Assembly (NCBI RefSeq): GCF_000003815.2 | Contig: NC_049996.1 | Span: forward strand, 17,430,087-17,494,086 | Length of the DNA: 64,000 nt | Origin: Branchiostoma floridae | Taxonomy: Eukaryota > Chordata > Leptocardii > Amphioxiformes > Branchiostomatidae | Reading direction: 5' to 3' | In this document: positions 5,011-64,000 of the stretch, in pieces | Layout of the letters: every line of letters starts with the position of its first letter | How positions within the stretch are numbered: the stretch's first letter is position 1 | Position numbers and translations under genes: made by a program | The notes under the pieces: generated by a model | Database searches by the model: none | What the model was told of the DNA's origin: nothing | The model's input: the letters and a program-made list of their open reading frames with translations, nothing else

Positions 5011-5185
5011 CGGCCTTCAGTATTACGGTTGTATCCGGCAGTTTCAAAACCCGCCTGGCTATTCAGTAACCACTCATTGGATCAGTGTAGTCGGTTGTTT
5101 CGCCGTTCCAGTTCTGCCTCTCCGTAGTCCAGCCTTTGCTGATGTTTGATCGGTGTTAGTCAAGCGGTTTGAGGCCTGTGGAAGG

Positions 5186-23200: not shown

Positions 23201-26189
23201 GTTAATGGCACCTCATATGAGGATGAACTGAACTGAACTGATATGTACATTGATTTTACTTGACTTGATAATGTATCTAAGAGAAAGGTCGGCCGCCCAA
23301 ACACAACTAAGAAACTCATTGAGGCCGAACCAGGGCTGGAGGGGCAAGGGCTACTCTCTGCGATGAAAGACAAGCAGTTCTGGAGGACTAACTTTGTCTG
23401 CTCCACCTCACACGAGAATGAATGATGATGATGATGATGATAATGTATTTACTTACATTTGTGTGTATTCTAAAGACTAAGTATGAGATGTAGATTATAC
23501 CTCTACCAATTTACCTTCACCTCTTCCCTCAGGGCCTGCATGCAGACCAATTTGAGCTTCTCCGGAATGAACAAAGCACCATGCAAAAATTTCCTTTTGT
23601 TGTGTCCATTAAGTATTGCTAATCTTTTGGTGGTAACATATACTGAAACTTGATTTAAAGTTCTCAGCATGCATGCAGTCAATTACAGCTGCCTTTAACT
23701 AAATCTGTGGAGTTCACTGGTTCATCTGCAAATCTTAATAATATTATAATGTAGTTTGTAAATTGTGATTTGTGTCATTAGATTACAAGAGAAGCCTTCA
23801 GCATACCAGGGAAACATCTGTCTGAACTGAACCTGAAAACGTATAATTAATGTTCCAAAACTTACCTTCCATCTGACAGTCCTGGCTTGTTCCCTTGTCT
23901 TCCCCCTGGATGGAAATATGATGAGTCAAATGACGACTTCTGGACTGATTGTGAAGTTAAGAAGCTCAGGACAGGATAGTTCACAGTTACTGTAACATGC
24001 TTCTGTGTAAGATTTCTCGGGTAGACGCAACCTGAAGATGCAGTTTCTCTCTTATCCTCTTCTCTTCCTTCAACACAACAAAGAACTGGTCTGAGTCAAT
24101 GGCGTTTGGTATGAACTGTAAACTAAAGATCCTCAAGCTTGTTTTTTGTTATTGGATGGGCCGACTACTCACTCTTTGCAGCCAGGGGCTAAATTCCGAG
24201 GAACTTACGATAGGCGGGGCTAAATCGCAAGGGTCTGGAGCGAGCTGCCATTCGGCGCCACTCAGGTGACCTCAATAGGACTGTCGCAAGTGTCTGGAGC
24301 GAGCTGCCATTCGGCGCCACTCAGGTGACCTCAATACGACAGTATGAACCTCTTGACAAAGACTTAGAGGAAACTAAAAGTCCTCTTGTCTTCCCTCCAA
24401 ACGATGGCAGTCTAAGTCTTCTGAACTAAACAGTTTCTCTGTATGTCATAATCCTTAAAACTTGTCTTGTCCTCTTGTCTTCCCTCTAGACGATCTCGGC
24501 CTAAGTCTTTTGAAGAACTAAACAGTGAAGTACCTCAGGACAAGATGCTGTTTTTGGTGGTTTATCTTTGTCCGACATCCGACAGGAGAATCCATCTTAT
24601 TGTAATAATCCTTAAAACTTTTCTTGTCCTCTTGTCTTCCCTGCAGACGATGGCGGTCTGAGTCGATCGTGTTTGGGACAAACTACACGGTAAAGAACCT
24701 ACAGCCGATGTCTGGGTACATGTTCCGTGTGCGCGCCAAGAACGCGTACGGCGCCAGCGAACCCGGCGAAGTCACGGATCCCGTCGTCACCAAGGAGAAG
24801 AAGACAGGTAGGCAAGACGTCTTGGCTGGAAGATGAAATATTGTCAGTGATCATCTGTGTTCAATGTAACACACCAGCTTCTGTATCTGTATGTATATTG
24901 CCAGTATCTGTATCTGTATCTGTATCTATATAGCCGGTATAACCGCCCTTCGGCGTAGCACACCAGCTAAAAATTCACGGGTCTCAGTGGCAAGTGTGCA
25001 GATGTTGACACACTGGCAACACCAAATCCGTAGGTGTTTTTGGCACCTTTAGACAGATTAGCCGTGAGGCTCGGTGGGCGTCACTCCACCGTCATGGGGG
25101 CAGGGGCATGGCGAGTATTGAACTCAGGACCTACTGATTCTGATTCCAACGCTCTAGCCGTTGCGCCACGCAGACACCCGGTCGGGCTGATACCTTGGGT
25201 GATACGGAATACACCGTGTTGTATTCTATATGTATATTGCCAGTAGAACAAGTATTTGAATCAATCCAAGGCATGACTATTTCTTGTTCTTGCCTGAGCT
25301 GGTTTAAAATACTTAGTTTTTGGTATATCTAACAGTTTATTTGATAGTCATTTCATACATCATAACTGATGGTAGATAACATCATTTTTTAACCTCATTG
25401 ATGACATGTTATAAGGATTATATCTATTTCCTTGGTTCTTGAAAATTTCTGGCAAAATTGAGCAAGCAATCAAGATAAAAACAGACTGCACACGGAGAAA
25501 ACTTAGGACTATATCTTCACACCTTAAAACTTTCCTTCAGACTCTGACCTGACCTCTGACCTTTGTTCTTTAGATAGCGACCTCCCCTTCAATCCCAGGC
25601 AGGTCAAAGTTCGTAAGGACATTGTGGAGAGGTTTTATGATGTCAACGAGGTCGTTGGAAGGTGAGTGACAAACCAACTTGTTCTCTATCTGATTCTTCT
25701 TACCTAAGATTTAACATCTAACTCAATGGCACAAAATTAAGGTTCCATACCATTGAATCAACTTAAGATCAATAGTTTGTCTCTCAGATCTAGATAGAGG
25801 TGATCTGATGATTGATGATTTGATCAGTTGATAGAAGGATTGATTAATTTTTCAGTGATTTATTGATCAATTACTTAACTACTTGATCAATTGATTAACT
25901 GACTAATGGACACTGATAGATCTACTGATTCATTAATTCTGCAGAAGAAGGTTTGCTATGTTACAGGTATCATTGATTAATTAATTGATTTGTTGATTGA
26001 TTAGTTGATTGATTGTTTAATTAGTTGATTGATTGACAAGTTTATTGATCTATTAATTTATTGACTCTACAGAGGAAGGTTTGGGACCGTGCAGCGGTGT
26101 CTGGAGAAGATTGATTGATTGATTGATTGATGGATTAATTGATTGACCTACAGAGGAAGGTTTGCCACCGTGCAGCAGTGTCTGGAGAA

Positions 26190-26232
<43 letters not shown>

Positions 26233-26275
26233 CCCACAAAGGAAGGTTTGCCACCGTGCAGCGATGTCTGGAGAA

Positions 26276-26309
<34 letters not shown>

Positions 26310-26352
26310 CCTACAGAGGCAGGTTTGCGACCGTGCAGCAGTGTCTGGAGAA

Positions 26353-26383
<31 letters not shown>

Positions 26384-29300: not shown

Positions 29301-32300
29301 ATAAGGTACAATTTTGACAAAAAAAGGTATCTTATCATCTCTACATATGCTAATACAGTCAAGTATGTACAAGTTCAACTTCTTCTCGCTTCTTAAAACA
29401 GTTATAAACATAAGGACAAATGGAATCAATAATATATGGCTTATCTAATTGCATGAGAAGTATAAATTTTTCCGTGGTATTCAAGTATCGGAAATTTGGG
29501 AACATAAGTTGTATATTTTCAAAAAGGACGTTTCTTTCGTTTAATGAGACATGATGGAAGGTCAAAATGCCAATTTAGCCAGGTAAAAAATACCTTAACT
29601 CAGGTTGATTATGTATCTGCTACCTTATCTGTAATGATGTTGTGAGACAAACACCGAGAATGTGAGTGGGTGGTGAAACCAAGTGTACACTGACTCCAGG
29701 AAGAGTAGTGTTACGATGTACACTAATGAAAATCTTAATAAAACAAACAAACAAACAAACACGTACCTCACTTCCATGACAGGCTGTGCGGAGTTTCTCC
29801 GTTCGCGGGGAAGTCGGACCTGGCGACCTTACGGAACATCATCCGCGGGAACATCGACATGACGCGGGAGGGAGTCAGCAAGAGCTCTGAGGAGGCCAGG
29901 GACTTCTTAAGGGGGCTGCTGGCACAGAGCAAGGAGTAAGACATTCTGTACTTTTCTTAAGATTCACTAAGTCTTAAGAGTTTCCATTGGTGAAGAGGCC
30001 AGGGACTTCTTAAGGGGGCTGCTGGCACAGAGCAAGGAGTAAGACATTCAGACTTTGCTTACGATTCACTAAGTCTTAAGAGTTTCCATTGGTGAAGAGG
30101 CCAGGGACTTCTTAAGGGGCCTGCTGGCACAGAGCAAGGAGTAAGTCTTAGACATTCTGTACTTTTCTTAAGATTGACCAAGAGTTCCCACTGGTGAACC
30201 ATGATGTGGACTAACAAACTATGGAACCCTCTCAATGACAAATGTTTTCGTTTTGTATACAATCTTCAAGCTTTCAAAGCCATTTTCCCCCTTATGTCCC
30301 AGCATGATACTTTCCACCATCCATCAACTAAGTTCATTGCATAATAAAAGTGGTCAAAAGGCCTTGCATTGAACAAAACCCAATAAAGAAAGTAGGCAAT
30401 TGTGTTAAAGGTTCTGTGCGAAGACCAAATTTGGGGACACGCTTAGCAGACTGCAGGATCACTCCAGGCTATGTTTTTGAAGAACTGAATCTGTATAGGG
30501 ACACCCTTAGTAGACTGTTGGTTAACGCTAGTCTGTGTGTTTAAAGAACTGAATATACAACTGTAGGGACACCCTTAGTAGACTACAGGTTAACCCTAGT
30601 CTGTGTGTTTAAAGAACTGGATATACAACTGTAGGGACACCCTTAGTAGACTACAGGTTAACCCTAGTCTGTGTGTTTAAAGAACTGAATATACAACTGT
30701 AGGGACACCCTTAGTAGACTACAGGTTAACCCTAGTCTGTGTGTTTAAAGAACTGAATATACAACTGTAGGGACACCCTTAGTAGACCTCAGGTTAACCC
30801 TAGTCTGTGTGTTTGAAGAACTGAATCTGTATAGAGACACCCTTAGTAGACTGCAGGTTAACCCTAGTCTGTGTGTTTGAAGAACTGAATCTGTATAGGG
30901 ACACCCTTAGTAGACTGCTTGTTAACCCTAGTCTGTGTGTTTAAAGAACTGAATATACAACTGTAGGGACACCCTTAGTAGACTACAGGTTAACCCTAGT
31001 CTGTGTGTTTGAAGAACTGAATCTGTATAGGGACACCCTTAGTAGACTGCAGGTTAACCCTAGTCTGTGTGTTTGAAGAACTGAATCGGTATAGGGACAA
31101 CCTTAGTAGACTGCTGGTTAACCCTAGTCTGTGTGTTTAAAGAACTGAATATACAACTGTAGGGACACCTTTAGTAGACTGCAGGTTAACCCTAGTCTGT
31201 GTGTTTGAAGAACTGAATCTGTATAGGGACACCCTTAGTAGACTGCAGGTTAACCCTAGTCTGTGTGTTTGCAGGGCGAGGTACACCATCGAACAGTGCC
31301 TCCAGCACAGGTGGCTACAGGTGAGACATTGACATTCTTACATGTTCAAGTATCTCTGTCCAGTCAATGACTATAATCCTTTTATATTTACCTGGAGAAC
31401 AATTAGTGTAAAATTATTACATTCAGCAGGAAAGTCTTGATCATTGCTCCCTCTTGCCAAAACAATTCAGTATGTTAGACTGAGTTGAAAAATATCAATG
31501 GGAAGATCAACTTAAAAACAGTCTTAAGGCAAAGTCTGTACCCTGGTACACACAGTTTCAGGGACTTATTATAAGCAAATAGTCTGTATCTTTATCTGTA
31601 AAGCCTTTCAAAGTAGCGCCAGCTTCACAGGCACGCATCGCAGCAGCTGGTTATATTACACCAGACCTATCACACCCAACTTTTACACAATCTAAAATTC
31701 TAACTGTAAGCCCTGTTTAGAGCTATCAAATGCTGAAGATGCTGCTACAGTACTTTGTAGTAACTGTCCCCTACAAAGAGTTAAGAAATAGCTCAACACT
31801 TTCTCCCCCTTCCTTCAACACAGAGGGACAGGAAGAGCCCAGGGAACTACGTCGTGCCTAAACAGAACATCAAGGACTTCATGGCAAGGAGAAAATGGCA
31901 GGTAAAATGAACATCTTATTCTTCAAATGCCTCTGAAAGATCAACAGGTGTTTTGCCACCTGTTGTAAAGCTAGAAGTAATATGTTTCTGACTAAGAACC
32001 CCTTGGGGAAGGCCATTGACAGTCTAGGAAACAGAGACTGGTTTTCTCCTTGGTGCTGAATTGCTGTAACAAGTTTTCTGTATTTCTATTGCATGTGCTG
32101 TATTCCTTATTACCTGACTTGTATATGAACATGTATGGTAGCAACAATGTCATTGAAAAGAAGCAAAGTCTTGCTATATGGTCTGCTCTATAGTGCTGTG
32201 CAACTTCTTACTGTATACCAATTGTTATGTTATGTGTATGAACAATGATTATTATAGCAGCATTTCAGTTGAAATGAAGTGAAGTCTTGCAAGATGTATG

Positions 32301-38300: not shown

Positions 38301-41300
38301 TCCCTTTCTTCCATCTAAAGTGCATTTTTCCTGAGTTGAAATCTGACAGTGACTCTACCCCAGCTTCAGTGAAGTGTTCTGGTTTACAAAGAAATAAACT
38401 TGTGACCAGATTTTGATGACCTTGACCCCTGCAGGTCACAATTATGGCTGAAGAGGTCAAGAAACCGGTGGCCAAAATAGAACCTGTGCCCCAGGAGGCG
38501 GAGGTCAGAGGTCGCACCATAGAGGAGGTGGTCGCAACCATCCCGGTGAGTGTGTGTCAAGATGGAGCAGTTGTTTTATTCTTTTTTACTTTTACCTACA
38601 ATATCTTGAAATCCTCAACTTGGAAGTTCTGCTGTTAGCAGAACGAAACTACCAAGAGAATACTATTAACTGTTACATTCAATCTCTTGGTTCTTGCATC
38701 TAAAACTAAGCTGACTAATCTCCAAGCAGATCCTACGGTAGCATAAGATAGTATCAAAAGCTGGCAGAGGAGTGAAGCCGGCTTAGGAGTGTGTTTGGCT
38801 ACATGGCAAATGGACACCTCTTGGCTGACTACACTACTTGGCTAGTTTGGTACTATCTTATTCCATCGTAGGATCTGCTTGGAGATTAAAACTGACCTGG
38901 ATTTCCAAAAATCAGCATGAAAACAGAGTCTGAGGGAAAAGCCTGTGCCTTCGTCTACACAGTTTCAGGTAGTGATTGATGATGATATACCTTATATCCA
39001 TGTCACATTATCCACGATCTTCGGGCGTATCGATGGAAGATCGGCCATATTTAAGATCGACAGAGGGTTGCGCGTATTTTTCACCTGAAAACCGTCCCTG
39101 TCACATATAAGCCATACTTTGTACCTTGTAAAATTGTTGCGCAATAAAGTTATAATTATAAGCGAGGCTCGCATAATCGTCGTCCGATCGATTTTCGCCA
39201 AATTCGACAGGGGTATTAGGCAGACACTCTATGCATAGCTGTGCATGGGAAGGTAGTGTAATTGGACTTACCTGTAACTTGGGGTGACCATGAAATGTCT
39301 GACGTGTTGCGAAATCTCTAAACCATGGGACTGATGGATGGACGGATGGATGTAGCTTTGTATAAAATAAAATGTAACAACAGGAATAAAAGGCAAGAAA
39401 ATGTAGACTAACCTGTAGCTTGGAGTGAAATGTCCATCTCGCCAACACAAATGATTCTCCCCCTGCAGGAGGGGAAGCGTCCGCTGGCCAGGATGACGTC
39501 GCTGAAGCGGCGTGGATCGACCGGCTCGGACATGTCGGGCGTCTCGTCTCCCGCCGACAGCGAATCAGAGGAGTACTATAGCGGCACCTTCTCCGAGTCA
39601 GGTACACACCTGTAAAACATAACACACCTGTTATATAACACCTGTATAACACACCTGTATAACACAACACACCTGTAAAACACACCACACCTGTAAACAC
39701 AACACACCTGTATGTCACAGTGAATCAGAGGAGTACTATAGTGGCACCTTCTCCGAGTCAGGTAACACACCTGTAAAACACACCTGTATATCACACCTGT
39801 ATGTCACAGTGAATCAGAGGAGTACAACAGTGGCACATTCTCCGAGTCAGGTAACACACCTGTATAACACACCTGTATTACGCCATTTATCGTTTTTACC
39901 GTTCTGTTCGCAGACACGGAGAGCAGTTGGTACTTCACAGCCAGCGAGGAAGTTACGCCGTTTATCATTTTTATGGTTATAATAAAGGATTGTTTATTTA
40001 TGTTTTGATCCGAGGAGATTGTTTGATCCGACCACACACTGACCCGCCACGGTCAGCTTTAGTTAATTAACTCCAGGCAGGATAGTCCGGGGCATCATTC
40101 CCGGACCGCCTTCAATGCATGCGGACACAGAGAGTGGATGTTACGCTAGTTATCGTTTTTACCGTTCTGTTCGCAGACACGGAGAGCAGTTCCTACTTCA
40201 CAGCTGGGGAGGATGAAGAGAACACAGCTCCAGTGTTCCTGAAGAGGATGCTGCGACAGACAGTCCAGGAGGGGAGCACCACCAGGTTCGAGGTCGTCGT
40301 CATCGGACAACCCAAACCTGCAGGTACGTCTGGTACCACATATAGTCTGGTACGCAGTCAGGTACCGTAGTCAGACCCCAAAACCAAACCTGAAGGTACG
40401 TCTGGTACCATAACCATAGGTACCTAAGTCCAGTACTGCAGCCAGGTACCATAGCATTAGGACCGGCTGCATATATTACCATAACCAGATACTAGTTAGA
40501 CAACAAACTGAAACGTAAGATACTGTACTGTAGTCAGGTACTACCACAGTCAGGTACTGCAGCCCAAGTACCAAGGACCAGTTGCATAGTCAAGTACCTC
40601 TGCTTTGCACCATAACCAGGTACTGTAGGCAAGTAGGCATATATAGTCAGGCTGTGGAGACTCCAGATGAAAGGTTGCTGAAAAATTTACAGGCCACAGC
40701 ACTTCATTCAAAATGTACAAATTTAGCGGGCGCTCAAGATGAAAACCTTTCTTATGGGGCATCCTTTAGGGTGCTTTCAGGTTGGGTTCTGTCATGCATC
40801 AAATCTCCTTCTTCCTTCCCTCTCTCCAGTGATGTGGCTGAGGAACAACTTCCCAATTAAGGAATCGGAGGATTTCCAGTTTCTGCAAGAAGGAAACATC
40901 TACTGTCTGGTGTTGCGGGAGGCGTACCCGGAGGATGCCGGGCTCTACACCTGCCGAGCCATCAACTCTGTAGACGTTGTTTCCTGCAGCGCTGAGCTAC
41001 GCGTCGAGGAAGGTACGGTGCTTACTGTTTGATTCATTTGTTTTAGTGGGGACTTATTTTTACAGTAGGAGAGTAAAGGAGGCTTTTATGGTGTTCCATG
41101 CTCTGCATTGAAACAAATTTGGTAGATATACAATGGAAACAGACATCCCGCAGAGCAGACTTACGCATCGAGGAACGTCCTTAACGTACAGTTATTTTTG
41201 TGGGGAATTTCGTGGTAGAGAGGAAAGGAGATTTGATGGTGATTTAAGTTTATGATGGAGAATTATACTGTACATGTAGTAAATTATATATAATCATAAA

Positions 41301-44300: not shown

Positions 44301-47300
44301 TGGTCTAAAGGAAGCTTCCACAACTGGAATCTCTTACTAATAGATATCACAATGTATGAGTGCAGATCATCTGATACTGTAATTCACTTTTTCTTCTCGG
44401 TACCAAACTTTCACGGTCTGAGAAAATTTAACTTGTTCTCGGAACTAAATGTTCTCGGTAAACAAATTTTTTGCTATCATCACCAAGACGAGTCATTTGT
44501 TATCGGCAATGATAAGTTCACGTTACAGTCGTCACCGTGAAAACCGTGAACATAAAAGTACATTGAAAAAATCAGGAATTACAGTAGTTGTTTGTTATAG
44601 GCGAGCAATGGCTACGGAGAAACATCGTGCAGCGCAAGGCTTCACGTTTCCGAGGAGTATACGCTTGACACGACGCACGCCATGCCGCCGAAGTTCGTCC
44701 ACACATTTCAGGATACGGACGCGATGGAGGGCCGGGAAGTACGGTTCGACTGTCGGATCATCGGGATTCCGCAACCCAAGGTCGCCTGGTACCTGCACAA
44801 CAGGTGAGGCAACTTGCTTCTTTTTTTTATTCATATTCAATTGATCCACTCACACCAGGAAAAAAACCCATCAAAACCGAGCAATGGTACTGTAAGTAAG
44901 TGTGACATCTTATCACAAACAAACAATAATGTTTTGATACAAAAAATGTTACCTCATGCGAAGAATCTTTGCATCTTTGCACCATACAGCCATTGGCTGA
45001 TTTGTGACAAGCACTGAAGAGTAATTCAATAAACCACTACATTATAACTGAAACTGTATGCTATTCCAGGAAGGTGCAAGATTCTCTGGAATGCATTGTG
45101 ACAGTCACTGTAGAACTGTCTCTAGAATGTTCCGTTTTCTTCTTGTGATGAAAAATTATAAATCATATAAATGTACATTGTACATATGAAGAAATTTATG
45201 TTATTTAAATGATGACTGATGAGTTAAACCGTATACTATTCCAGGGAGGTGCAGGATTCCCTGGAGTACCGGATATTCCAGGCCAACGATCAGCACTCCC
45301 TGGTGATTCCGGAGGTTTTCCCCGACGATGAGGGGGAGGTGGTGTGCAAGGCTGTTAACACACTGGGGGAGACCAGCTGTAGTGCTGAGCTGTTCGTAGA
45401 TGAGGAGGAACCAACAATCACCAGGCAGAGGTACGTCCTGTTGTTGTCGTTGTTTACGTCCTGTTGTTGTTGTTGTTGTCCTGTTGTTGTTGTTGAACAC
45501 GCTGGGGGAGAATCAACCATCACCAGGCAAAGGTATCACCTCACCTCACCTATCCCTTCCTTGACCTCCGTATGGGTCCTTGGGCGCCACCATGACTGGT
45601 CCATCCACTATCCTCCTCCACCTATCTCTGTCCTCTGCCGCTCTCATGGCTTTGGTTATACTCAAAACAGACTCCACTCTTTTATGTTGTGCTCCCATCT
45701 TTTCTTTTTGTCTCTCTTTGAGATCACTTTTGCTTTTATTCCCAGTCAAGAAGGCAGCCCCACCACAGTAGCTGTGTCCAGTGAGATCACTTTCCTTTTT
45801 GTACCAAGTTGAAACCACTTTCCTTTTCATTTCCAGCCGAGAAGGAAGCTCCACCACAGTTGCCGCTGCCGTCGGCATAATCCCGAACTTTGTGCAGCGT
45901 CTGCAAAACTCCGCCGTGTCAGAGGGTGAGACTGCGACCTTTCGGTGTCGGATTACAGGTGACCCCAGGCCAAAGGTCATGTGGTTCCACAAGAAGAGGG
46001 AAGTGACGGCGGCTCGGAGGGTCAAGATGTCTTATACAGGTGAGAATGTCTTAAAGATGACAGTTAGATAAAGGTAAGTTATGAACAAGTATACAGATTT
46101 CAAAAATATTTAGGTGGAATGTTCTATACCAGACAATTTAGAATTTTAGAATTTTGAAATGAAAGGACTGCAAATTCTGTAGTACAAACAAGAACTACAC
46201 TTCAGTACAACAACACAGAAAATCTTATGAACTATTTTCTGTTGTCTGTACAGAAGAGGGCGTGGCTACGCTGGTCATCAGCAGTGTCAGCAAAGGGGAC
46301 ATTGGAGTCTACGCTTGTGTAGCAAACAGCCCAGCTGGGAAGGCTACATGTGTGGCAAAGTTACATGTGGAGACAGAAGGTGAGTGTGGCAAGCTGTCCT
46401 GCTACATGTGTGGCAAAGTTACATGTGGAGACAGAAGGTGAGTGTGGCAAGCTGTCCTGCTACATGTGTGGCAAAGTTACATGTGGAGACAGAAGGTGAG
46501 TGTGGCAAGCTGTCCTGCTACATGTGTGGCAAAGTTACATGTGGAGACAGAAGGTGAGTGTGGCAAGCTGTCCTGCTACATGTGTGGCAAAGTTACATGT
46601 GGAGACAGAAGGTGAGTGTGGCAAGCTGTCCTGCTACATGTGTGGCAAAGTTACATGTGGAGATAGAAGGTGAGAATGTCGCAAACTGTCCTGCTACATG
46701 TGTGGCTAAGTTACATGTGGAAACAGAAGGTGAGAATGTCGCAAACTGTCCTGCTACATGTGTGGCATATTTGCTTGTGGAGACAAAAGGTGAGAATGTG
46801 GCAAAACCGTCCTGCTACATAAATGAATGAATGGGTTTTATTGAAAGAACACTTAGCAGCCGGATGGCTAAATTACATGTCCTGTACATGTGTGGCAAAT
46901 TTGCTTGTGGAAACAGAAGGTGAGAAAGTGTGGCAAAGGTACATGTTGATACAGAAGGGGGGAATGTGGCAACCATCCCAGGTTACATGTACAGCATATC
47001 GTCCTGCATATGTGTGGCAAAGTTACATGATTGTAAAGATACACAATGTACAAAATGTATAGAACCTCATCTATTTATTCTGTCTGCATTGACCTGCAAA
47101 ACAGGTAACATTCTAAACAAAACCTCTGAAGTGACAGTAAAAAAATTAGCACATATTTCACAAAACATTGGCTTCAAAGCCAGCCAATATTCAAGTGGCC
47201 AGTAGGACCTTCAATTTGTTTGTTTGTTTGTTTGTTGCAGGTGTTACGGAGGAGGACAGAGAGCAGACCCCGCCCCGATCCCCGCACGCAAAGCCACAGA

Positions 47301-50300
47301 TCAAGAAGAGCCGAAGCAGGGAAAGTATGAATGTCATGTTTTCAAAAAAATCTAGAACTGAACTCTGTAGTTTGATTTTCCTTTTAATTAGCACAAAGCT
47401 CTTGGTGTAAGTAGACTAAGTGTTTGGGCCCTCTAGTTCATTTTTAGAGCTGCAGGAGGCAGTTAAGTTTCAGACTTTGAAAGAGAGTAACTGAAGAAGT
47501 GGTTGATGGATTGTCATGATTTTTGGTATGAAGATAACTTGAGTAATGTCTGTGTATCTTTTCTGTCTCAGTTGCCCCAAAGCCTCCGTACGGAAAGCCG
47601 CGTATTTCCAGTCGCACCGCGACGAGTCTGATTCTGTCATGGAACCCGCCTCCACCACAGCAGGACACAGAAAGTTCGCTATCGTACATCATCGAGTTCA
47701 GGGAGTCAGAGGTGGGCATACGTAGTACATGTAGTATTGTTAGCAGTTCATAATTCAACAATGCTGACCAAACCCATGTTAAGTTCCAACCGTAATTCTA
47801 AACAATATACGCCCAAACTTGTAGCGTGCCTTGCCCTGGTGTTGAGTGACCCTACCTATGGAACTAGAAGCCGTGAGTTCTATTCCGACTGTGTCGCTCA
47901 CCTGACATACGCGCTACGGGAAAGGGTTACAGTCCTTAGGACAGGATGTTAACCCGTGGTCCACTGTTCATTGTGCTTGTTGGAAAGAGCTAGGGGAATT
48001 TCCCTGGTACACTGAACCTACAAATACTGTACATAGCATCTGTCCTCTCTGTCACGACCAGTGGAAGACTAGCTCTTCAGAGCTAAAACTGGATCGAGAT
48101 CACTTTCCTTCCTTTCCAAACTATAAGCTGTCTTTAAGAAGTTCCCCTCCCTGTTCCTTGCAGGACTCCCGGTGGCGGGTGAAGGCTAAGAACGTGCGGG
48201 AGACGTCTTACCTGGTGGATCACCTGCCGGAGGAAGGCGTCTTCTTCTTCCGTGTCAGCACAGAGAACGACTTCGGAGTCAGCGAGCCCTCGGAGGAGAG
48301 CAAAGCCTCCAACATACACGAAGGTCAGCCAGGGGAAGAGTCGGGCGTCCCAGACGTTCATCCCACTTCCCGTTACTATCAATTTTCTTCCAACAGTGAC
48401 TGTTTATCAAAGGTAGAGGACGTACCTCCAAATTTTTTAAGTCTGACAGCACCTCTTGGTCACGGAGAATGGCCTAGTCTCGATCTCGCGACAGAACACG
48501 AGTGAGAAGACTATTAATTGATAGTAACCGCGAGTTTAATTCCGGCTGTTGTCGCTCACCCGACATGCACGCGACCGGAAAGGGTTGCAGTCTCTAGGAC
48601 AGAACATTAAGCTGTTGTCCACTGTTCATTGTGCTTGTTGAAAAGTACAATGAACCTGTAAATACGGGCCTCCAACATACACGAAGGTTAGGCCTGGTGA
48701 AGAGTCTTCACATTCTGAAACTCAGTTACTTGACAGTTCAGTTCAGTTCAGTCATCAGGTGACACTATTTGACTATATTTCTTAAGACGTAAAATAAGAT
48801 ATTCTTGCCGAACAGAAACGTGCAAAATGAATGAGGAGAGCAAAGCCTCCAACATACACGAAGGTCAGGCCTGGGGAAGAATCTTCCCATTCTGAAACTC
48901 TGGTAGAAGAAATCACAGCAGTTACTTGACTATGATTACATTTCTTAAAGATGTAAAATAAGATATTCTTGCCGAACAGAAACATGCAAAATGAATGAGG
49001 AGAGCAAAGCCTCCAACATACACGAAGGTCAGGCCTGGGGAAGAATCTTCCCATTTTGAAACTCTGGTAGAAGAAATCACAGCAGTTACTTGACTATGAT
49101 TACATTTATTTAAGATGTAAAATAAGATATTCTTGCCGAACAGAAACATGCAAAATGAATGAGGAAGCAAAGCCTGCAACATACACGAAGGTCAGGACTG
49201 GGGAAGAATCTTCCCATTTTGAAACTCTGGTAGAAGAAATCACAGCAGCTACTTGACTAGGATCATATTTCTTAAAGATGTAAAATAAGATATGATATTC
49301 TTGCTGAACAGAAACATGCAAAATGAATGAGGAGAGCAAAGCTTCCAACATACACGAAGGTCAGGACTGGGGAAGACGTTCTTACCACTTCCCGTTTTGA
49401 AGCTTTACTGCAAACTCAGTGGTTCCTTAAAAGTTTGTTACCATTAAAGGTGCAAGGATGTTCTAATTGATGATAATTTCTAGGACCCATACTCTTTCTT
49501 AACTTGTCGTACCTTTGTTTCCCAATTGTATTAGAAAGTTCATAGTACTTAGAATATAAAACGTGCTCTCCAACAAGATCTCTTCAGCGTCACAGAATGT
49601 TATCTGAAACATCTGACTGTTTCCAATATCATATCCAGTTGGGTTGAGTAAGTGCCATTATATATTCTAATTTGGCATATCTTTCCCACATGCTGAGGGA
49701 TCACCAGATAAAGAAACTCACCTGTAAGACTCATGTATGCCAACTTCTCCTCCTGCAGGCTCTGACTCCGAGGATGAGGATGTGTTGTATATAACAGAAG
49801 TATAGTTTACATCATCTTGCAATGACAACAGCCGGGGGTTTAGAACCTGAGACCTATACTCTTTCCCACATGAGACAAAACCAGATAACGAACTCACCAA
49901 GTATGTAGTGTAAGATTCATGTGGGCTAGAAAGGGTAGACATTACTAGGCAGCTACACATGTATGCTCTCCTGATAAAGATACTCACCTGAAGACTCCTC
50001 CCCCTGCAGGTTCCGACTCCGAGGATGAGGATGTGTTGGGGAGACCAGGTCTGGTACGGCAGGGGTCCGTCAAGCGCCGCGGGCCGCCCGGAGCGCCCGA
50101 GTTCCTCAGCCTGCCCGAGGACTGCTTCACGCTGGAGGGCGGGACGGCCGTCTTCTCCTGTACACTGAGCACCCGGCCTGCGGTCAGCACTGTGCAGTGG
50201 CTCTGGATGGGCAAGGTCATACTAGGTCAGGACTAGCGCTAGGTAGTAAAACACAGCGAGCACTCGCGCTAGATTAGAGTAAATTAATTACTAGGTAGAC

Positions 50301-53300
50301 ATCATCTTCTGCATGCTGAGCACCCGGCCTGCTGTTAGCACTGTGCAGTGGCTCTAGATGGGCAAGGTCATACTAGGTCAGGACTAGCGCTAGGTCTCTG
50401 GATGGGCAAGGTAATACTAGGTCAGGACTAGCGCTAGGTAGCATAACAACATACGTTAGTGCTAGGTGGGTAAACATTGTTAGATAGTCGTGTTCTCCAA
50501 ACCTCTATGATGAGCACCCGGCCTGCTGTTAGCACTGTGCAGTGGCTCTGGATGGGCAAGGTCATACTAGGTCAGGACTAGCGCTAGGTTGTGTACTTGT
50601 CGCTTATTGCTAGGCAGCCATATTGATCTGTATGCTGAGCATCCAGCCCACAGTCAGCACCATGCAGTGGCTCTGGATGGGCAAGGTCATACTAGGTCAG
50701 GACTAGCGCTAGATAGGGTAGAGATTGCTAGGCAGCTACAATGTATGTTCACCTGTATGCTGAGCACCTGGCCTGCTGTTAGCACCGTGCAGTGGCTCTG
50801 GATGGGAAAGGTCATAGTAGGTCAGGACTAGCGCTCAAAAAGATAGTAAAACACAGTGAGCACTAGCACTAGGTTAGAGTAGCATATTGCTAGGCAGATA
50901 TGTTCTCCTGTATGCTGAGCACCCGACCCGCGGTTAGCACTGTGCAGTGGCTCTGGATGGGCAAGGTCATACTAGGTCAGGACTAGCGCTAGATAGGGTA
51001 AAGATTGCTAGGTAGATATTGCTAGCTGTCTTCTCCTGTATGCTGAGCACCCGGCCTGCTGTTAGCACCGTGCAGTGGCTCTGGATGGGCAAGGTCATAC
51101 TAGGTCAGTACTAGCGCTACATTAGAATGAATAATTGCTAGGTACATGTAGACATGTTCTTCTGTAAGGTTATACATGGTCAGGACTAGCACTAGATGAG
51201 CAGACATTGCTAGACAAAATGTTCTTCTTCTGTACGTACTCCGCAATGGCTGTGATGGGCAAGGTCATACTAGGTAGGACTAGCGCTAGATAGAGTATAG
51301 ATTGCTAGGTAGATATTACTAGCTATCTTCACCTGTATGCTGAGCACCCGTCCTAATGTTAGCACTGTGCAGTGGCTCTGGATGGGTAAGGTCAGGACTA
51401 GCACTAGGTTGCATTCAGTTCTACAGTAGTTCTAGTACCAGGGGAGTAGACATTGCTAGGCAGACATGTTCTCCTTTATGCTGAGAACTTGGCCCGCAGT
51501 TTGCACCATGCAATGGCTCTGAAAGGGCAATCTTAAGGTCATACTAGGTTAGGACTAGCGCTAGATAGGGTAGAGATTGCTAGGCAGCTACAATGTATGT
51601 TCTCCTGTATGCTGAGCACTTGGCCCGCAGTTAGCACCGTGCAGTGGATGTGGACGGGCAAGGTCATATTGGTCAGGACTAGCGCTAGATATGTTAGACA
51701 TTGCTAGACAATCATGTTCTTCTGTGCTAGGTTTAAGAGTAGCAAAGCCACATGGAAGTTCACATAATAACGCTGTTGAACAAGTTGGACATTGTTGTTC
51801 ATAAGTGCAGATTTCATGTTTCAGAGTGTAGGAAACATGGCCTGTGTTCTGGAGTAAGCCACATACAGGTTTCTATGATAAAAGTGGACTTAAAAAAAGT
51901 TGAGTATTGCTGTAAGGCCTAGGAAAAAAAATGTTGTGTTTCCTGTTTCCCTACCTACCCTAAAAAAACCTGCCGACCCTAGACTTTTTTTTTGGGTGAG
52001 CAGTGGAGTCACATAGCTTCCAGTTAGAATTTTTATTTAGCCTGCTTCTTATTGAAGTAAAACACTGCTTGTCCTATCTAATGAAGAATAAATGTATCTA
52101 TCATGTACAAAATTAAAGTTTGACACTGAAAGACAAGTGTCATCATGCATTTCAGTTTGCTTGAATTTTGGCCAGCCTAAAAAAAAAATACAAGAAAAAA
52201 AAAGATAATCCCTACCTACCGACCCTACTTTTTTCAGGACTGAAACAGGAAACACAACATTTTTTTTCCTAGGCCTAATGGTTGCATGTGTAGAAAGCCT
52301 GTGTTCTGAATGAGCAAGTTTCAATAGATGATACAACTGGTAGATGGAGCTAAAGTTTACGATTGTGTGTTACCTGTTTCAGAGATCAGGAAGAATATAA
52401 CATTATACATATATCCTGTGTTCTGGAGGAAGCCACAAAGACATTTCTATGATAAAGCTGGAGCGTTTGCGATTGCTAAGTTTACGATTGTCTGTCTCCT
52501 GTTGCAGAGAGCAGGAAGCACCAGCCCGTGTTTGACGCGCGGACCGGGGAGTCCAGTCTGACCGTACAGAGCGTCTCACTGAGGGACATGGGGCAGTATC
52601 AGGTCAAGGCCGAGAACCAACACGGCGCTATGGCCTGCTCTGTATGCCTTGGACTTGCAGGTAAACACACAAACAAACAAACAAACACAGTACCAGAGAA
52701 CTAGCATGGTGCCATGGCCTGCTCTGTATGCCTCGGACTCGCAGGTAAACACACAAACAAACAAACGAACAAACACAGTACCAGGTCAAGGCAAAGAACT
52801 AGCATGGCGCCATGGCCTGCTCGGTGTGCCTGGGATTTGTAGGTAAACAAACACACAAACAAACAAACAAACAATACAACAGAGCCATGGCCTGTTCTGT
52901 TTGCCTCGGACTCGCAGGTAAACAAACAAACAAACAATAAAAATAATACAGCAGAGCCATGGCCTGTTCTGTTTGCCTCTGACTCGCAGGTAAACACGTA
53001 AACAAACAAACAAACACAGTACCAGCTCAAGGAGGAGAACCAACATAGTGTCATGGCCTGCTTGGTGTGCCTCAGACTGGCAGGTAAACACGTAAACAAA
53101 CAAACAAACAAACAAACACAGTATCAGGTCAAGGCAGAGAACCAGCACGGCGCTATGGGCTGCTCGGTGTGCCTGGGACTCGCAGGTAAACAAACACACA
53201 AACAAACAAACAAACAACACAGCAAAGCCATGGCCTTCTCCATGTGCCTCAGACTCGGAGGTAAACACACAAACAAACAAACAAACACAGTACCAGGTCA

Positions 53301-56300
53301 AGGCAGAGACCCAACACTGTGCCATGGCCTGCTCTGTATGCCTCGGACTCGCAGGTAAACACACAAACAAACAAACACAGTACCAGGTCAAGGCAGAGAA
53401 CTAGCATGGCGCCATGGCCTGCTCTGTATGCCTCGGACTCGCAGGTAAACACACACACAAACAAACAAACAAACAATATGGTGCCATGGCCTGCTCTGTA
53501 TGCCTCGGACTCGCAGGTAAACACACAAACAAACAAACAAACAAACACAGTACCAGGTCAAGGCGGAGAACCAACACGGTGCCATGGCCTGCTCTGTATG
53601 CCTCGGACTCGCAGGTAAACACACACACAAACAAACAAACACAGTATCAGGTCAAGGCAAAGAACCAACACAGTGCCATGGCCTGCTCTGTATGCCTCGG
53701 ACTCGCAGGTAAACACACACACACACAAACAAACACAGTACCAGGTCAAGGCAGAGAACTAGCACGGCGCCATGGCCTGCTCTGTATGCATCGGACTTGC
53801 AGGTTAACACGTAAACAAACAAACAAACAAACACAGTACCAGCTCAAGGAGGAGACCCAACATAGTGTCATGGCGTGCTTAGTGTGCCTCAGACTGGCAG
53901 GTAAACACACAAACAAACAAACATACACAATGTAGTACCAGGTCAAGGCAGAGAAGCAGCACAGTGTCATGGCCTGCTCTGTGTGCCTTGGACTCGCAGG
54001 TAAACACACAAACAAACAAACAAACAAACAATATAGCAGAGCCATGGCCTGCTCGGTGTGCCTTGGACTCGCAGGTAAACAAACTCACAAACAAACAAAC
54101 AATACAACAGAGCCATGGCCTGTTCTGTTTGCCTCTGACTTGCAGGTAAACACGTAAATAAACAAACAAACAAACACAGTACCAGGTCAAGGCAGAGAAC
54201 TAGCATGGCACCATGGCCTGCTTGGTGTGCCTCGGACTTGCAGGTAAATACACAAACAAACAAACAAATAAACACAGTACCAGGTCAAGGCAGAGAACCA
54301 ATTGCAACACGGCGCCATGGCCTGCTCTGTATGCCTCGGACTTGCACGTAAACACACAACAAACAAACACAGTACCAGGTCAAGGTAGAATGGTAAACCA
54401 GGTCAACCAGGATGGTGCCATGGCCTGCTCGGTATGTCTCGGACTCGCAGGTAAACACACAAACATACAATACAGTAGAGCCATGGCCAGCAAATAAAAA
54501 TGTACAGAATTACAACATCTCAATAAAAAGTAATTGTTTATGGGGCAAGTGAATATTTGTGTAAGCCTGCTTGCTGTTGTCTGCAGAATCTCCCCAGTTT
54601 GACGTGACTAAGTTCATGCTCGGCACAAAGAAACACTGGGATTTTCCCTGTTGCGTCCCACAGTTTGATATGTTTTAGCACACAGAAACTCTGAGATGTT
54701 TAGCTCCACACACTGTTCATCAGATTTTCCTTGTCTTCCATAGAGTCCTCCAGTTTTAGCACACAGAGACCCAGAGATTTTCCCTGGTGTTGTCTGTAGA
54801 ACCTCCGCAGTTTGCTATGTTTAGCTCCACACACTGTTCACCAGACTTTCCCTGCTCTTGTCCACAGAGTCCCCGCAGTTTGAGGACATCATGGAGGATG
54901 TGGAGATGTATGTGGGGGAGACGGGCCGACTGGAGGTCAGACTGTTCGGCAAACCTTTCCCAGACATCACCTGGCTCAAGGTGGGTATCAATCCTGACTA
55001 CCTGCCCAGAAGCTCTTGTAGGGGTTCTAGGAACACTGACAGGGACCTGTATAGCTAGGAACTCTTGCAGTGGCCAGGCAGAGGCTTAGCGTTGCCATGG
55101 CAAACCTTTCCCTGCAATCACCTGGCTGAAGGTAGTCTGTCTCACAGACAGAGGTCTTGCTTCAATGTTAAAATGTTTCCATGACATCACATGGTGTATA
55201 AATAACAGCCAGGCATAATCTAAATGCTCTTGTAGCTAAGAATGTAGCTAGGAGCTGTGGCCAAGAGCTGTTGTATAGGTCTGTATAGCCCTGTGTGACA
55301 AACTTTTCCTGACAACACTGACTGTAACTATGACCTGATTGTAGACTGTATTAGCAACATTTAAGAATGAATCCACTAGAAATCCCCCCTCCAAACAAAT
55401 GTAACAGTAGCTAGCAGTCAGAGCTTAATATCAGAAGTGCACATTCTGAATTCTACATGTATTTCACTATTTGTATATATATGTTCAACTTGGTAGAACT
55501 TGTGCAGAAGTATACCCTAAATAAACTCGGCACAAAAAGTTTCGCATATCAACTTTCACTGGTTGATCACATTTCTGATGTTTCTGCATCAATTTCAATG
55601 TATCATATATCAATTGAAAGCTAGTGTGATTCCCTTTCCCACGGTATCAGACTCATTATAAATGTAAACTCATGAAACGAGCTCTGGGCCCGCTAACATG
55701 AGTGGGACACCAGAGATGATGATGATGAGATATTAAAAATACCTGATTGTAGAATCCGTTAGAAGTTTTGGTGCCCTGTGCAACTGCGGAATGTTTTAAC
55801 CCTTTTTCTGCTGTCTAACTACACCAATACATCATCATCATCTTTGCCAAAACCAAGACGAATTTGGTGCTAAACAGCTACTTTAGCAGTCTGAGGGTAA
55901 GTCTGTATTTGTTTTCAGGGTTCAGAGGAACTTCCCAAGGAGAAGCGTATCAGCACAACAAGGAGCGACGAAGAGGTGGTTCTGACGATCAACAGCGCCG
56001 TCCTGTCTGACACAGGAGTCTACACCTGCACGGCCAAGAACATCGCGGGGGAGGTCTCCTGCAAGGCACAGGTCACTGTGTCTCCAGGTAAGGGGTCTTG
56101 AGACATCTTAGAAAAAATTCTATTCACAGAGACAAATCTGAGACAAATGCAAGCCTCAAACCACAGTGTCTCCAGGTAAGACACCAGGTCTTAGAAATTA
56201 TCTCGTGCAAGACTTGAGTCACTTATTTCCTAATAAGACATAATAGAAAAATGTCTTGTGTTAGAATTTTTAGAGGAAAGTGCAAGGAAAGTTCTCGCAT

Positions 56301-59300
56301 AAATACAGTGTCTGATGTAACTGTGTCCTTACTTAGTAAGATGCCTTAGAAACAATGTGCAATGCGTTCGAGCCCATAACACTGAGGAAGCCACACGGCA
56401 AAACATGTTTGTTGTGTGTCGGTTCGAATAAAGTTCCTAAACGGGGAAGATGCGGCTCCAGCGTCTTTTCTGAAGATGTGGCGTAAGTGGGAACGGTTGG
56501 CTTGAGGTTGTCCTTCCCCACATACTACAATGTGCAATGCTTTGTTCCTGATAAGACAGTCAGTCTTCTGGTAAATTTCTGAGGCAAAAAAGGTTTGATT
56601 CTCTACCGTGCAGTTCCTGAGTCAACAGACACAGAAGCCGAGGAGACCTGCTGGACAAAAATCCACACAATACGGGAACAGTACAGGATACACGAGGAGC
56701 TGGGCAAGTAAGTTGCATAGAGAAAAACTTAACGATCACAGTTACATTTTTTGTCAGGGTATAACACAACTCTGGTAGCACAGTTTCATCAGACTGGTTA
56801 ATTTCAAGAAAACAAATTCTGTGACATTCTAATACCCTGAGGAACGTGAAAGACGGTCACCCAAATGTTGGCCAGTTTACAGTATGTTGTTATTTATTGT
56901 TATTGTGTTGTTTTTATGTATGCGCATGTGCCCAGGATGGCCTGAAAAACAGGTCTACGTTGAGCTGAGATGTATTCCTGGTTAAATAAATAAACTGAAA
57001 CTGAAACTGACTAATATATGTACTTGTGTACTAAGAACATACCGTTATCACCTTGCATAAAGCTTTTAACAGAGCTATAGAACTGATCTAATTCAACGAA
57101 AGCTTACGCTTACCGCTTACCGGTCCCTTGACCGGGGGTGGTCGTGGGGGCACTTAGCAGCTGAGCAAACCTCCCTCCATCTCACCCTGTCGTGGGCCAG
57201 AGCTTGGGTTAACAAAAGCTACATTGTTGTAAAAGCTCCTGTCCATGGTATATAGCCAAAGCAAGAAAGAGCATCCAAATCAATTACGACAGCACCATTC
57301 TGAGGTTGCAAGAGTCCTTCTGATATGGTGCTATAATCACCCTGAACCTGTCCTGTTATTCCAGAGGTGCCTTTGGGATCATCAAGCGAGTGACGCACCG
57401 CAAGACGGGCAAGAAATTTGCCGCTAAGTACATCCGGTACAAGCCCCACCGCAAGGCTGACCTCCAGCGAGAGGTCACGGTCATGGCCAAACTGGAGCAT
57501 GCTGGGATTGTACAGCTGGCGGAAACATTCCTGGAGACCAAGTTCGTTGTCATGGTGATGGAATAGTATCCTTTCAGTCGTTTAAGGCCTTGAAGATTCG
57601 GGGCTAGTCATCATGATAAATAATTAATTAGATTGGCCGTACAAATAACTTGTAGGATGATAGATTTGATAAATTTTGCAGGATATGTGTACAAAGGACT
57701 ATCTACCCTAGAAGTGGTGACCACAGCATGTCCAGACACAAACAAGTTAAAAATACAGATAAATAAACATGTTATCCTGCAGTATCTGGAGAGCTGCCAG
57801 GGGCCTAAAATCTTTGCACTTCTCTAAAAGGTCAATACCAAACCACAAACTAAATTTCATTGTCATATTAGCAATCCATCCCTTGTTGCTTCCATTGTTA
57901 TGCTGCTAAAAACAAAACTTCTGGTTACATTGTAACATCTACAAATACTACCAAAAACATACCATCTTGGTGAAGTTAACATTCAAGATGTCAACATTTA
58001 GACAGGTACTAATTATGAAGTCCTCTCTACTGGTAGGTAAAGCCAGAGGTCATGTGTTACAGCCACACCTCAAAATGTTAAATAACCCACCGAACTTGTT
58101 GAAAAGAGGGATCCATTCTAATGTGAGTGGATCAAACCTTACAGTCTGGTCTTACACAGATCTGGACTTTACATACTGTACGGACCTGGTGTGTTACGCC
58201 TAGAGGTGGTTTGAAAGTTATACAAACAAACAGAAGTGAGAAGCACCTTAACCCCCCACAGTGTTGCAAAATACCACCTGCATTATGCAGGTTAGTGCAG
58301 GTAAAATTGGAGCTGTGCAGGTATTTCTGGTGTCTACATGCACCTAACCTGCACTGGTCCATGTACTAGGATTTATACATAAATTATCCAATGATTTAGG
58401 TGCATGCAGATTGTTATTAGCTGCATTGACTGCTACCACCTATTAACTATAAAATAATGATGATGATAAAATAATGGTTCCTGAACAATTTTAGTATGAT
58501 CCATACTTCCTAAATTCAGAGTGGTGCAGGTAAAATTTGTCTGGTGCAAGTAATTTTCAATGCCACCTGCACCAGTGCAGGTATGCAGAAAAAAAGTATT
58601 TCGAGCCCTGAAAACAGACAAACAGAAGTGAGAAGCACCTTAACCCCCCCAGTGTTGCTATGGGCGAGCTGCTGGAACACCTGGTGAAGGTGCCAGACCT
58701 GAGCGAGGCAGACATCGTGCCATACCTGTCCCAGCTGCTAGGGGCGCTGCAGTACATACACAGCAAGGACATCGTACACTTAGACATCAAGGTACCAGTA
58801 CTCACACGTTATAAGAAGACAGTGCCTTCTACCTTAAGTTAGTCTTAGTAGTGTATATCTTGAAAAAAGGGCTTTCCACCACTGGCTGTGACCACTGATC
58901 ATATAAACAAACATATGACAGATCATGTAACAGATTTCATAGACAATTTTTATGTTTTGTATGCACTTTTACATAATGCAACATATTCAAGGTATAAACT
59001 CAAGGGTCACAAAAGTTGAATTCTATTCCCTCAATGGTGACTCAGTAAATGCATGGAAGAAGAAAGAACCCATTTCAGCACCAAGGACATCGCCAATGGA
59101 ATCTCTTTCCACTGAGATACATGAAAGTTTCCTTTTACCCACTTTAAGTCCATCCTCTGTACCCCCTTACTTCACCCGCTTCTCACTACTACCGGTCGTA
59201 GGGGTCTCCAAAGACCTAAAACAAAGGGCCAAGATCTACGTTGTTTACCAAATGGGAAGATCTACACCCTACATTGCCAAATCCATTCACGATTCCTCCT

Positions 59301-62300
59301 ACATTTTTCCAGAAAAAGGCATGTACTAGAAACCTGTATACTGTTAGGCTAATATTGAGCCTGCACACCTGCATGTAAGAGTGACCTCTGACCTTTGCCC
59401 TATGCCCTTTACCCCCAGCCCGAGAACCTCCTCCTCACCAAGTCAGACTCGGGGCAGCTCAAGCTTTGTGACTTCGGGTTGGCACGGCAACTGTTGCCAG
59501 GCACGCCCGAGATCTGCAGGTTCGGCACGCCCGAGTTTGTTGCCCCGGAAACGGTTGCCAAGGAACCTGTGCACCTGACGACCGACATCTGGAGCACCGG
59601 GGTCCTGCTTTATGTCTTGTAAGTCTTAAGGAACCTTAAGGGTGAAATTGTTTTATCTAACTTCAGAAAAAATAAGACTGACATGTGTACATTATTAGAT
59701 CATTTCATATTAACAGCAGAAATTAATTCCAAAAAATCTGCTGTCATGAAATGCCCACATTTATAAAATTTAATCTTATATTTGTAATGATTATCATGAT
59801 TGTCACTGCACTTCCAGTAAATTTTGAATAAGGGATTTTCAACTTAATGCCTGACTTGAAGCTCAGGGTCTGCATGCTACTGTAAAGTTGCAGTCTTTAT
59901 TTGAAAAGAAGTACATTATGAACCTATAGATACTCTACATAGCATTACTCTTTCTTGTCACACCAGACTGAGTGGAAGATTAGCTCTTCAGCGGGCTAAA
60001 CTCATTTCTCCCTTTCCCCAAGTTTGACTGCCTTTCACCCTGCCTCCTGTAGGCTCAGTGATGTTTCTCCCTTCTTGGTGAACAACGACAAGGAAACATA
60101 CACGCAATGAAGGCACTAAGCTGTGGTCCACTCTTCATTAGATTGTCGGAAAGAAATACGAGGGTTTCTCTTAGACTAGTACAAATGAAGCTGTAAATAC
60201 AATAGCATTCGTATTCTCTGTCACGTCACCAGTGAAAGAGTAGCTCTTCAGTGAGCTAAACTGGTTCCAAACTTTGCTTCTTTCCCCTTTTCTGTAGGCT
60301 CGATAGTGTTTCCCCCTTTGTGGACAATAACAACAAGTAGACGCACAGTAAATACGATACACAGCGTCTGCCTCCTCTTTCACAACCAGTGGAAAACTAG
60401 CTCTCCCAGAAGTGGAGCTATTTTGAAGTTTTGTTTCTTTCCCCTTTTCTGTAGACTCAGCGGTGTTTCCCCCTTCATGGGGAACAATGACAAGGAAACG
60501 TACACGCGCGTGAAGGCCGGCCGCTGGGCCTTCGACCAGAAGATCTTCAACCACATCTCCAACGAGGCCAAGGACTTCATCACCAAGATGCTCGTGGTCG
60601 ACCCAAAGTACGTTCTACATCTTAGACACCATTTAAGAGCCCAATATCAGTTACGGTAGTACATTGTAGGTCTTCTGCATTTACATGTATCTTACTGAAG
60701 TTTATGGAAAGAATCACCAAGATGCTTGTGGTCAAGTCTAAGAAGGTTCTAAATCTTAGACACGATTTTTAAAAATCCTACTAATGCGTGCTTGTAGTTG
60801 ACTTAATCAGTACGTCTTAATCAGTCAAAGAAATCATTTAAGAGGTTTGTATAAGTCTTAAATGTGTGTCATAATGTTGTTCAAGATGTCTCAAAATAAA
60901 GTCCTGACTTCTTTTCACTCCTCAGGAAGAGACCAACGGCCAGTCAGTGTCTGGAAGATGTCTGGATTAAGGTACAGGGGAGGTCTGGGAGATTAGTAGG
61001 AGTGGTGCAAATATATATTGGGGGGTCTATGTCGTACTACAATATATTTTGGGGGGCGGTTATTTTATGAAACCTCTTCTATCTTCTATCTTCATTTTTC
61101 AAAACTAAATAGATGAATCAAAAGAGTCCAGAAGTAAATCTCAGTTTTTACCCAGTTGTACGATTCATGTATTTGAATATTGTTTAGTACCTGGATGTCT
61201 AACATATCATTTTCTAGTGCCATAAGAAAGACATCTCAAAAAAATCAGTGTCACCTTGAAGCTAAATAGTAGACATTGTGTGACGCTCTCCTTTACCTTA
61301 TCTAAGACTCCAGTTTCTAAGGAGACAGCGGCGAAGGTCAGCGCAGATCGTCTCAAGTTCTTCCACTCCAGACGCAAGTGGCAGGTAAGGAAACCTGTTC
61401 CCTGGTTTGTTGAACACCTTGGTGCCATAAGTAAATGACCTGTTTTATATCTCATTTATATGTCAGAATATTGAGAAGGGCTTACTGTGTGTGAACAATT
61501 TGTTGTAAGCAACATTCTAATCTAAATTGCTACATTTCATGTATGCATGAATCTCTAAATCCACCCAAATCCAATCTCTTGGTTTTTATAATTATTCAAT
61601 TAAAGATTGGAAGATGAGGGGAAAGTCTTGGTACACAATGCAGTTGTGGGGAGTGTATCTGTATCTGTATTTGTATCTATATAGCCGGTATAACCGCCCT
61701 TCGGCGCAACACACCAGCTATGAGTGAGAGCCAGGTTCAAGCCTTCTGCTGTTGTTGTTGTCCTCTTGCTATGAGTTTACACAAAAATGCCTGAAATCCA
61801 ACAAATGAAAACTGCACATGGTCTGAGACAGTGTGCTAAATATTAAAGATGATGGATGTTTACTCCAAAAACACCAGTGTCGATGGGGACTACACATTAA
61901 TGAGCCCAGTTTAATTTTACACTCACTTAAAACCCTTTTCTTTTGAGCTACCCTCAGCCAACAACCATTTTTCCTCAATGATAAATGATACCAAATTTTT
62001 CCCCTATATTGTAAAACAGTAATAACTATCTGTACTGTATGTGCAGATGATAAAATATCACGATTCTTACCTTTACAGAAATCGCTGATCTCGGTTGGTG
62101 CTCCTCTGAAGATGCGCCCGATCTCGCAGGTTCTGGCGGTGGCGGGCGGGTCCCAGTCGCTAGGCATCAAGCGTGGCCCCGACGACAGCGACTCGCCGTT
62201 GTCATCGGAGGCGGAGACCACTGACATCGAGGCGCTCACGTCTGAGGTAGGAACAGGGGGGATTATTATCTATTGCTGACAAAATCAAATTAAACACAGC

Positions 62301-64000: not shown

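Follow-up and report, generated by a model that had tools for sequence, protein, structure and literature searches.

The window, by which is meant the whole 64,000-nucleotide stretch of DNA analysed (C18:17430087-17494086), carries on its forward strand a predicted gene of 38 exons (24647-64000) that reads through 3163 codons without a stop and in consistent phases, a model built from genomic sequence and not from transcripts. A dynamic-programming exon prediction gave 61 exons, which were cut by hand to 38. Predicted exons were dropped in this curation if they were copies within arrays, scored weakly or did not fit the phase, and 34 of the 38 exons kept are identical to predicted ones. The model has 75 splice junctions in place of the 78 counted in the original prediction, and the start coordinate given there (24384) falls within a copy of the exon-1 acceptor (24380-24418), where the model has no exon start. 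Two gaps are present in the window, neither of them within this gene, hereafter the host gene. Upstream, where no exon is modelled, lie five contiguous tandem arrays with units of 74-172 bp (3179-21051), and a 691-codon frame on the reverse strand (12137-14212) contains a reverse-transcriptase domain (RVT_1, E 6e-36) and is probably a fragment of a non-LTR-like element.

The product of the host gene, a giant kinase gene of muscle type, begins with an FN3-like end (23.1 bits, under the Pfam cut-off of 25). This is followed by an MLCK-like kinase whose nearest solved structure is MYLK4, the long exon 9 (3138 bp), in which no Pfam domain was found, Ig repeats, an FN3 domain, further Ig, a second kinase with DAPK and twitchin as its nearest structures, and an S/R-rich region, after which the gene continues past the end of the window. 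Seven I-set stretches lie between exon 14 and the second kinase. Within the second kinase domain the intron at 57566-58652 has the U12-type donor GTATCCTTT, which we take to represent the U12-type consensus, and CCTTAAC near its acceptor. Past the window (L030 and L031, C18:17494000-17513999) Ig- and FN3-like exons are predicted up to a third kinase-like stretch, identified by eye, and we take the last two kinases to resemble the obscurin/SPEG tandem. The first kinase could instead come from a distinct MYLK-like gene, and the naming of the gene has no bearing on the tests of junction repeats. The accessible text of a 2025 paper places the titin, obscurin, MYLK, MYLK2 and TRIO genes on amphioxus chromosome 18 (PMC12198301), in agreement with the position of this titin/MLCK-family gene on contig 18.

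Splice junctions that carry copies

Tandem repeats across splice sites in amphioxus have been named "mirages", among them those of Adh3 (Canestro et al. 2002, as cited in the accessible parts of PMC3087553 and PMC3902484). The boundary minisatellites of the Adh locus that the original prediction mentioned are a real precedent, and the phenomenon itself is not new. For the host gene, a junction was counted under a strict criterion when self-comparison within 2 kb gave a direct repeat that scored 30 bits or more and extended 8 bp or more to either side of it. Copies were found in this way at 21 of the 75 junctions (12/38 acceptors and 9/37 donors), and an inverted-repeat control on the same junctions gave 0/75. 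The count remains 21 at thresholds from 24 to 40 bits and is 20 at 50 bits. At five more junctions (A7, D20, D28, D29 and A32, where A and D are the acceptor and donor of the numbered exon) the match stops less than 8 bp from the junction on one side. D15, inspected since the original prediction had listed it, has a decayed copy; in a scan of the 49 then-unassigned junctions by the same criterion it ranked highest at 29.2 bits, while the other 48 reached at most 24.7 bits, as did 98 control comparisons. In total 27 of 75 junctions carry copies (21 strict, 5 edge cases and the decayed D15) and 48 do not. These are the same 27 boundaries, 13 donors and 14 acceptors, that had been named by eye, once exon n of the original prediction is read as exon n-2 of the model. 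The range of extra copies given there (1 to about 20) also held, running from 1 to 20 with the maximum at D27. All of the 18 alignments of junction copies checked by eye appear genuine, and Tandem Repeats Finder picks up many of the arrays.

All families lie on the forward strand. Among the donors, D27 has an array of 84-98 bp units with 20 extra copies and GT in 20/20 (52594-54488), D26 about 12 extra copies (50151-51725), D22 about 8 units of 58 bp (46343-47029), and D6 and D13 two extra copies each, with units of 103 bp (29888-30198) and 89 bp (39557-39881), respectively. The copies of D25 (48293-49376) have a unit of 164-177 bp, and the nearest lies 363 bp from the real donor. Single copies are present at D14 (40309-40454), at D17 (43321-43489), with CT in place of GT, and at D34 (60579-60768), with GA in place of GT. 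On the acceptor side, A3 has 5 extra copies, the intron part of which includes a GATT microsatellite (25839-26497), and A17 also has 5, with a unit of about 97 bp (42619-43212). Two copies of A1 were found upstream of it by self-comparison (24380-24664), several of A28 (54572-54888) and A34 (59971-60517), and one each of A14 (39878-40213), A16 (41977-42204; 122-bp unit), A20 (45051-45265), A21 (45699-45863), A26 (49680-50038) and A27 (52353-52518). The edge cases comprise an array of 64-68 bp units that ends exactly at A7, its match containing no exon base (30426-31274), and copies of D20 (45408-45535), D28 (54948-55133), D29 (56060-56180) and A32 (58222-58658). The copied piece of A32 (58222-58267) is the 3' end of the intron with the U12-type donor, which is evidence against a cause restricted to the sequence of ordinary splice sites. 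The decayed copy of D15 (40982-41206) consists of the 29.2-bit match and a colinear second piece.

Units are mostly 58-180 bp, and divergence among copies reaches about 30%. As in described mirages, the units span the exon-intron boundary, the exon body is single, and the additional copies, many of which keep AG or GT, are located on the intron side, within the neighbouring intron or ahead of exon 1. The exception is exon 38, where a 36-bp array at the acceptor (63154-63429) includes an in-frame repeat (63154-63383) that has an open frame and may be part of the coding sequence. Its consensus unit contains the acceptor-like CTCTCCTTCCCAG, and the array represents either a minisatellite in coding sequence or a mirage that provides several acceptors in frame.

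The splice signals of the copies are mostly intact. Of 72 copies, which represent 21 junctions (exon 38 left out, A32 included), 67 (93%) retain GT or AG, compared with 82% for other adjacent base pairs, and the splice dinucleotides are the better kept in 17 families and the less well kept in 4. The site score lies no more than 1 nat below that of the real site in 57 of 71 scored copies. These figures, together with the retention of AG bases at acceptors (44/46, vs 134/161 at seven nearby positions), would suit copies that function as spare or decoy splice sites. At donors, however, the GT bases (94/98) and nearby bases (322/343) are kept about equally. The comparison is also limited in that a counted match had to span the junction, which favours matches there, and in that the copies within one array are related and thus non-independent; moreover, 48 of 75 junctions do without copies. 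A function of this kind appears quite improbable, and the retention of splice signals is best described as near-neutral, with weak selection possible; no claim of selection is made.

Placement of repeats relative to splice junctions

Plain base coverage, compared with random placement as the original prediction had proposed for its own refutation, gives a negative result: junctions of the host gene are not enriched, with 28% of junctions and 32% of intron positions covered. The boundary copies themselves fill and lengthen the introns, which accounts for this result and is the reason that event counts are used in place of covered bases, although both are reported here. In the event test each family is counted once, and the start positions that straddle a junction are set against those that are wholly intronic; the P values rest on the approximation that families are independent of one another. 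Of 29 short-offset families 21 cross a junction (5.65 expected, P 5e-10). Three more are marginal, and the other 5, which include the array ending at exon 7, lie only in introns. When introns are reduced to a single unit per family and the exon-38 array is excluded, 20 of the 28 families cross a junction (7.19 expected, P 3e-7), and whole-span placement gives an expectation of 4.17 (P 4e-12). The repeats of the host gene are thus tied to its junctions beyond random placement when events are counted, and the overlap between repeats and splice sites anticipated in the original prediction exists at the level of events and not at that of base coverage.

The same tie is seen in the arrays that are still contiguous. 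Of 13 such arrays 12 cross a junction, and the remaining one stops exactly at the acceptor of exon 7; without the exon-38 array the count is 11 of 12 (2.78 expected, P 7e-7). The host-gene introns, 30 kb in all, contain no contiguous array away from a junction. The restriction to contiguous arrays removes most of the detection advantage conferred by a conserved exon, and it bears on the possibility that duplications arise at random and that those holding an exon edge are merely recognisable for longer, since the real exon is constrained. The old families A20, A27, D20, D28, D29 and D34 can indeed be recognised only near the exon edge, and the excess is weaker outside the host gene. Against this, the contiguous arrays retain the tie, and masking of all exons leaves 23 families recognisable in the introns, 15 of which come within 20 bp of a junction, a raw count given without a chance expectation. 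Constraint on one of two copies should, in addition, at most about double the time over which a duplicate is recognisable. Such a bias is rather unlikely to account for the pattern.

Errors of assembly are another potential source of repeats, either because two haplotypes that share similar exons but differ in their introns were placed one after the other or because repeat numbers were miscounted. Long arrays such as the 20-copy array at exon 27 are difficult to assemble. In the accessible text of earlier work the draft version of one globin mirage is described as aberrantly assembled (PMC3087553), and repeat copies in PGBD5 differ between two assemblies, 2 vs 7 and 3 vs 6 (PMC3902484), so copy numbers taken from an assembly are unreliable. 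An artefact nevertheless seems highly improbable as the origin of the copies themselves, given that most units measure 58-180 bp, that as many as 20 extra copies occur and that copies diverge by up to about 30%. The exon-17 region has a single full-length place in the genome, and the repeats in PGBD5 were confirmed by re-sequencing data according to the authors (PMC3902484, accessible text).

Junction copies in other genes

The host gene was compared with a sample of 20 regular 10-kb pieces from contigs C1 and C2 only, nine of which have usable predicted exons. Copies are present at 8 of 86 predicted junctions in this sample and at none in the inverted control. Five of 39 short families straddle a predicted junction, and many families lie outside predicted genes. 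Apart from two satellite-like loci (L016 and L019), the sample has 15 contiguous arrays. Six of these cross a predicted junction, with 1.25 expected by unit events and 4.09 by whole-array rotation (P 0.17); as it is not significant under rotation, this excess alone is no proof.

In the tail of the host gene past the window, 6 of 26 predicted junctions have copies (4/20 and 2/6 in the two pieces), and of its 11 short families 6 cross a junction (2.6 expected). Boundary arrays there lie at donors 3794, 4992 and 8068 and acceptor 7194 of L030, and at acceptors 1351 and 2026 of L031. Two dynein segments (L011 and L034) have copies at 4/26 and 2/26 junctions, and a myosin-I-like gene (L035, C10:21155001-21165000) at 4/18. 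The latter is rich in boundary arrays, one of which extends for about 1.3 kb at a 100-bp offset (1151-2432) over small predicted exons that the prediction leaves unresolved. No copies were found at the 24 junctions of a coiled-coil gene (L017). Two class-II (muscle-type) myosin heavy-chain genes, L032 (C9:6390501-6400500) and L033 (C2:12843001-12853000), gave 0/40 junctions each, and their predicted exons, 20 in each gene, are accompanied by no direct-repeat family, at junctions or in introns, under the detection used here. Pooled, the dynein, myosin-I-like and coiled-coil genes have copies at 10 of 94 junctions. The six loci have 21 short families in all, of which 9 cross a junction (5.4 expected), 9 lie only in introns and 3 are edge cases. 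Predicted junctions are crossed by both contiguous arrays of L011, by the single one of L034 and by 3 of the 4 in L035; L017, L032 and L033 are without such arrays.

By the strict count the density of copies in the host gene (21/75) exceeds that of the C1/C2 sample (8/86, p 0.0035) and that of the other genes taken together (10/174, p 4e-6); L011 and L017 belong to both comparison sets. The number in one gene, which the original prediction considered exceptional, is therefore high relative to the sample and the pooled genes. It is not unique, however, since the myosin-I-like gene has a similar rate. The proposal of a boundary-linked duplication process is supported in part: in the host gene the repeats are tied to junctions by events, whereas outside it the tie to exon edges is weaker or not significant.

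Known mirages and the origin of the copies

The host gene differs from Adh3 in having copies at 27 junctions of one gene. The units of the Adh3 mirages are given as 10-72 bp (PMC3087553), compared with mostly 58-180 bp here, and somatic instability has been reported for them, whereas the host gene was read from one assembly. Among the globin genes of B. floridae, BflGb6 and BflGb9 have mirages with units of 150-160 bp, one on the acceptor side and one on the donor side, and RT-PCR suggests regular splicing (PMC3087553). The accessible text of that paper describes one boundary per gene and contains no test against random placement, in contrast to the many junctions and the test presented here. 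Repeats across splice sites are also known from lancelet PGBD5, where two occur in the gene, and the same source cites troponin C (PMC3902484, accessible text). Intron gain by tandem duplication in Cryptococcus (PMC2395259) and in the potato RdRp gene (PMC4974935) resembles the host gene in that duplication or repeat expansion copies splice signals; in the accessible accounts of those cases new introns result, whereas the host gene shows no new intron. A literature search that fell short of most subscription papers found no genome-scale or event-level study of mirages and no contrast between genes. Relative to the literature found, in which mirages are gene-by-gene curiosities, the event-level test is new, as is the contrast between class-II myosins (0/80 junctions) and the dynein, myosin-I-like and coiled-coil genes (10/94). 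The events in the host gene show more than minisatellites touching exons by chance. Together, the edge tie and the myosin contrast lead to a testable mutational or survival bias.

The observed structure and number of the copies and their tie to exon edges in the host gene are probably those of amphioxus mirages, in which edge-straddling segments are duplicated in place, seeded in or at exons, with exon-internal events selected away and the survivors near neutral. Segments mostly of about 60-180 bp across an exon edge would be duplicated in place by ordinary local copying, whether slippage, template switching or unequal repair, and some duplications would then have grown, to as many as 20 extra copies, and undergone homogenisation. 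Seeding in or at exons would have to be far commoner than in intron interiors, and selection would remove the events that fall wholly inside exons, so that the survivors straddle edges. The extra copies would remain on the intron side and presumably be spliced out along with the intron. Once established they would be nearly neutral, since splicing would use the site attached to the exon body. The edge tie itself is most likely due to this combination of seeding in or at exons and removal of exon-internal events. The 3.1-kb exon 9 contains no array with a unit of at least 30 bp, which argues for the edge itself, as exon-wide seeding would predict a few in-frame arrays. The two class-II myosin genes without any copies indicate that seeding is not universal.

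The heterozygosity of amphioxus is high, and the introns of homologues might be too divergent for repair to pair along anything other than exons. Repair tracts would then end or switch template at exon edges and leave straddling duplications. Such exon-limited recombination is unlikely, even if it would account for donors and acceptors alike and fits both the lack of contiguous host-gene arrays away from junctions and the exon breakpoints, which apart from the exon-38 array fall 11-75 bp into the exon. In 7 exons copies are found at both edges, as this scheme might predict, but the pairing is marginal (hypergeometric P 0.048), and copies at both ends of the same intron are nearly as common (6 introns, P 0.17). 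The scheme also presupposes high heterozygosity, taken here as general background. The broader proposition, that exon edges throughout the amphioxus genome act as hot spots of tandem duplication, since hyper-polymorphism lets homologous repair pair only along exons and makes it fail or switch template at their ends, with splice-site copies as the scar and as raw material for new introns and exons, is comparably doubtful. Seeding in or at exons followed by selection is preferred here. The edge tie of the host gene points to some way in which the genome duplicates or keeps exon edges, and dozens of near-perfect spare splice sites in one gene bear on the origin of new introns and of alternative splice sites.

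Within the host gene, copies are present at 2 of 26 phase-0 junctions and at 24 of 49 others (p 3e-4; 26 matches, D15 not included). Twelve of the 26 phase-0 junctions fall in a single linker block, exons 7 to 13. Avoidance of phase 0 as a general rule was rejected, since it was not repeated in the dynein and myosin-I genes (7/50 vs 3/20) or in the gene tail (1/3 vs 5/23). Copy-bearing and other junctions do not differ in GC contrast, exon GC, exon length or splice-site score. Intron GC near copy-bearing sites is slightly higher (p 0.028, uncorrected), and the introns beside copy-bearing junctions are longer (median 868 vs 527, p 0.006), as expected because copies add length.
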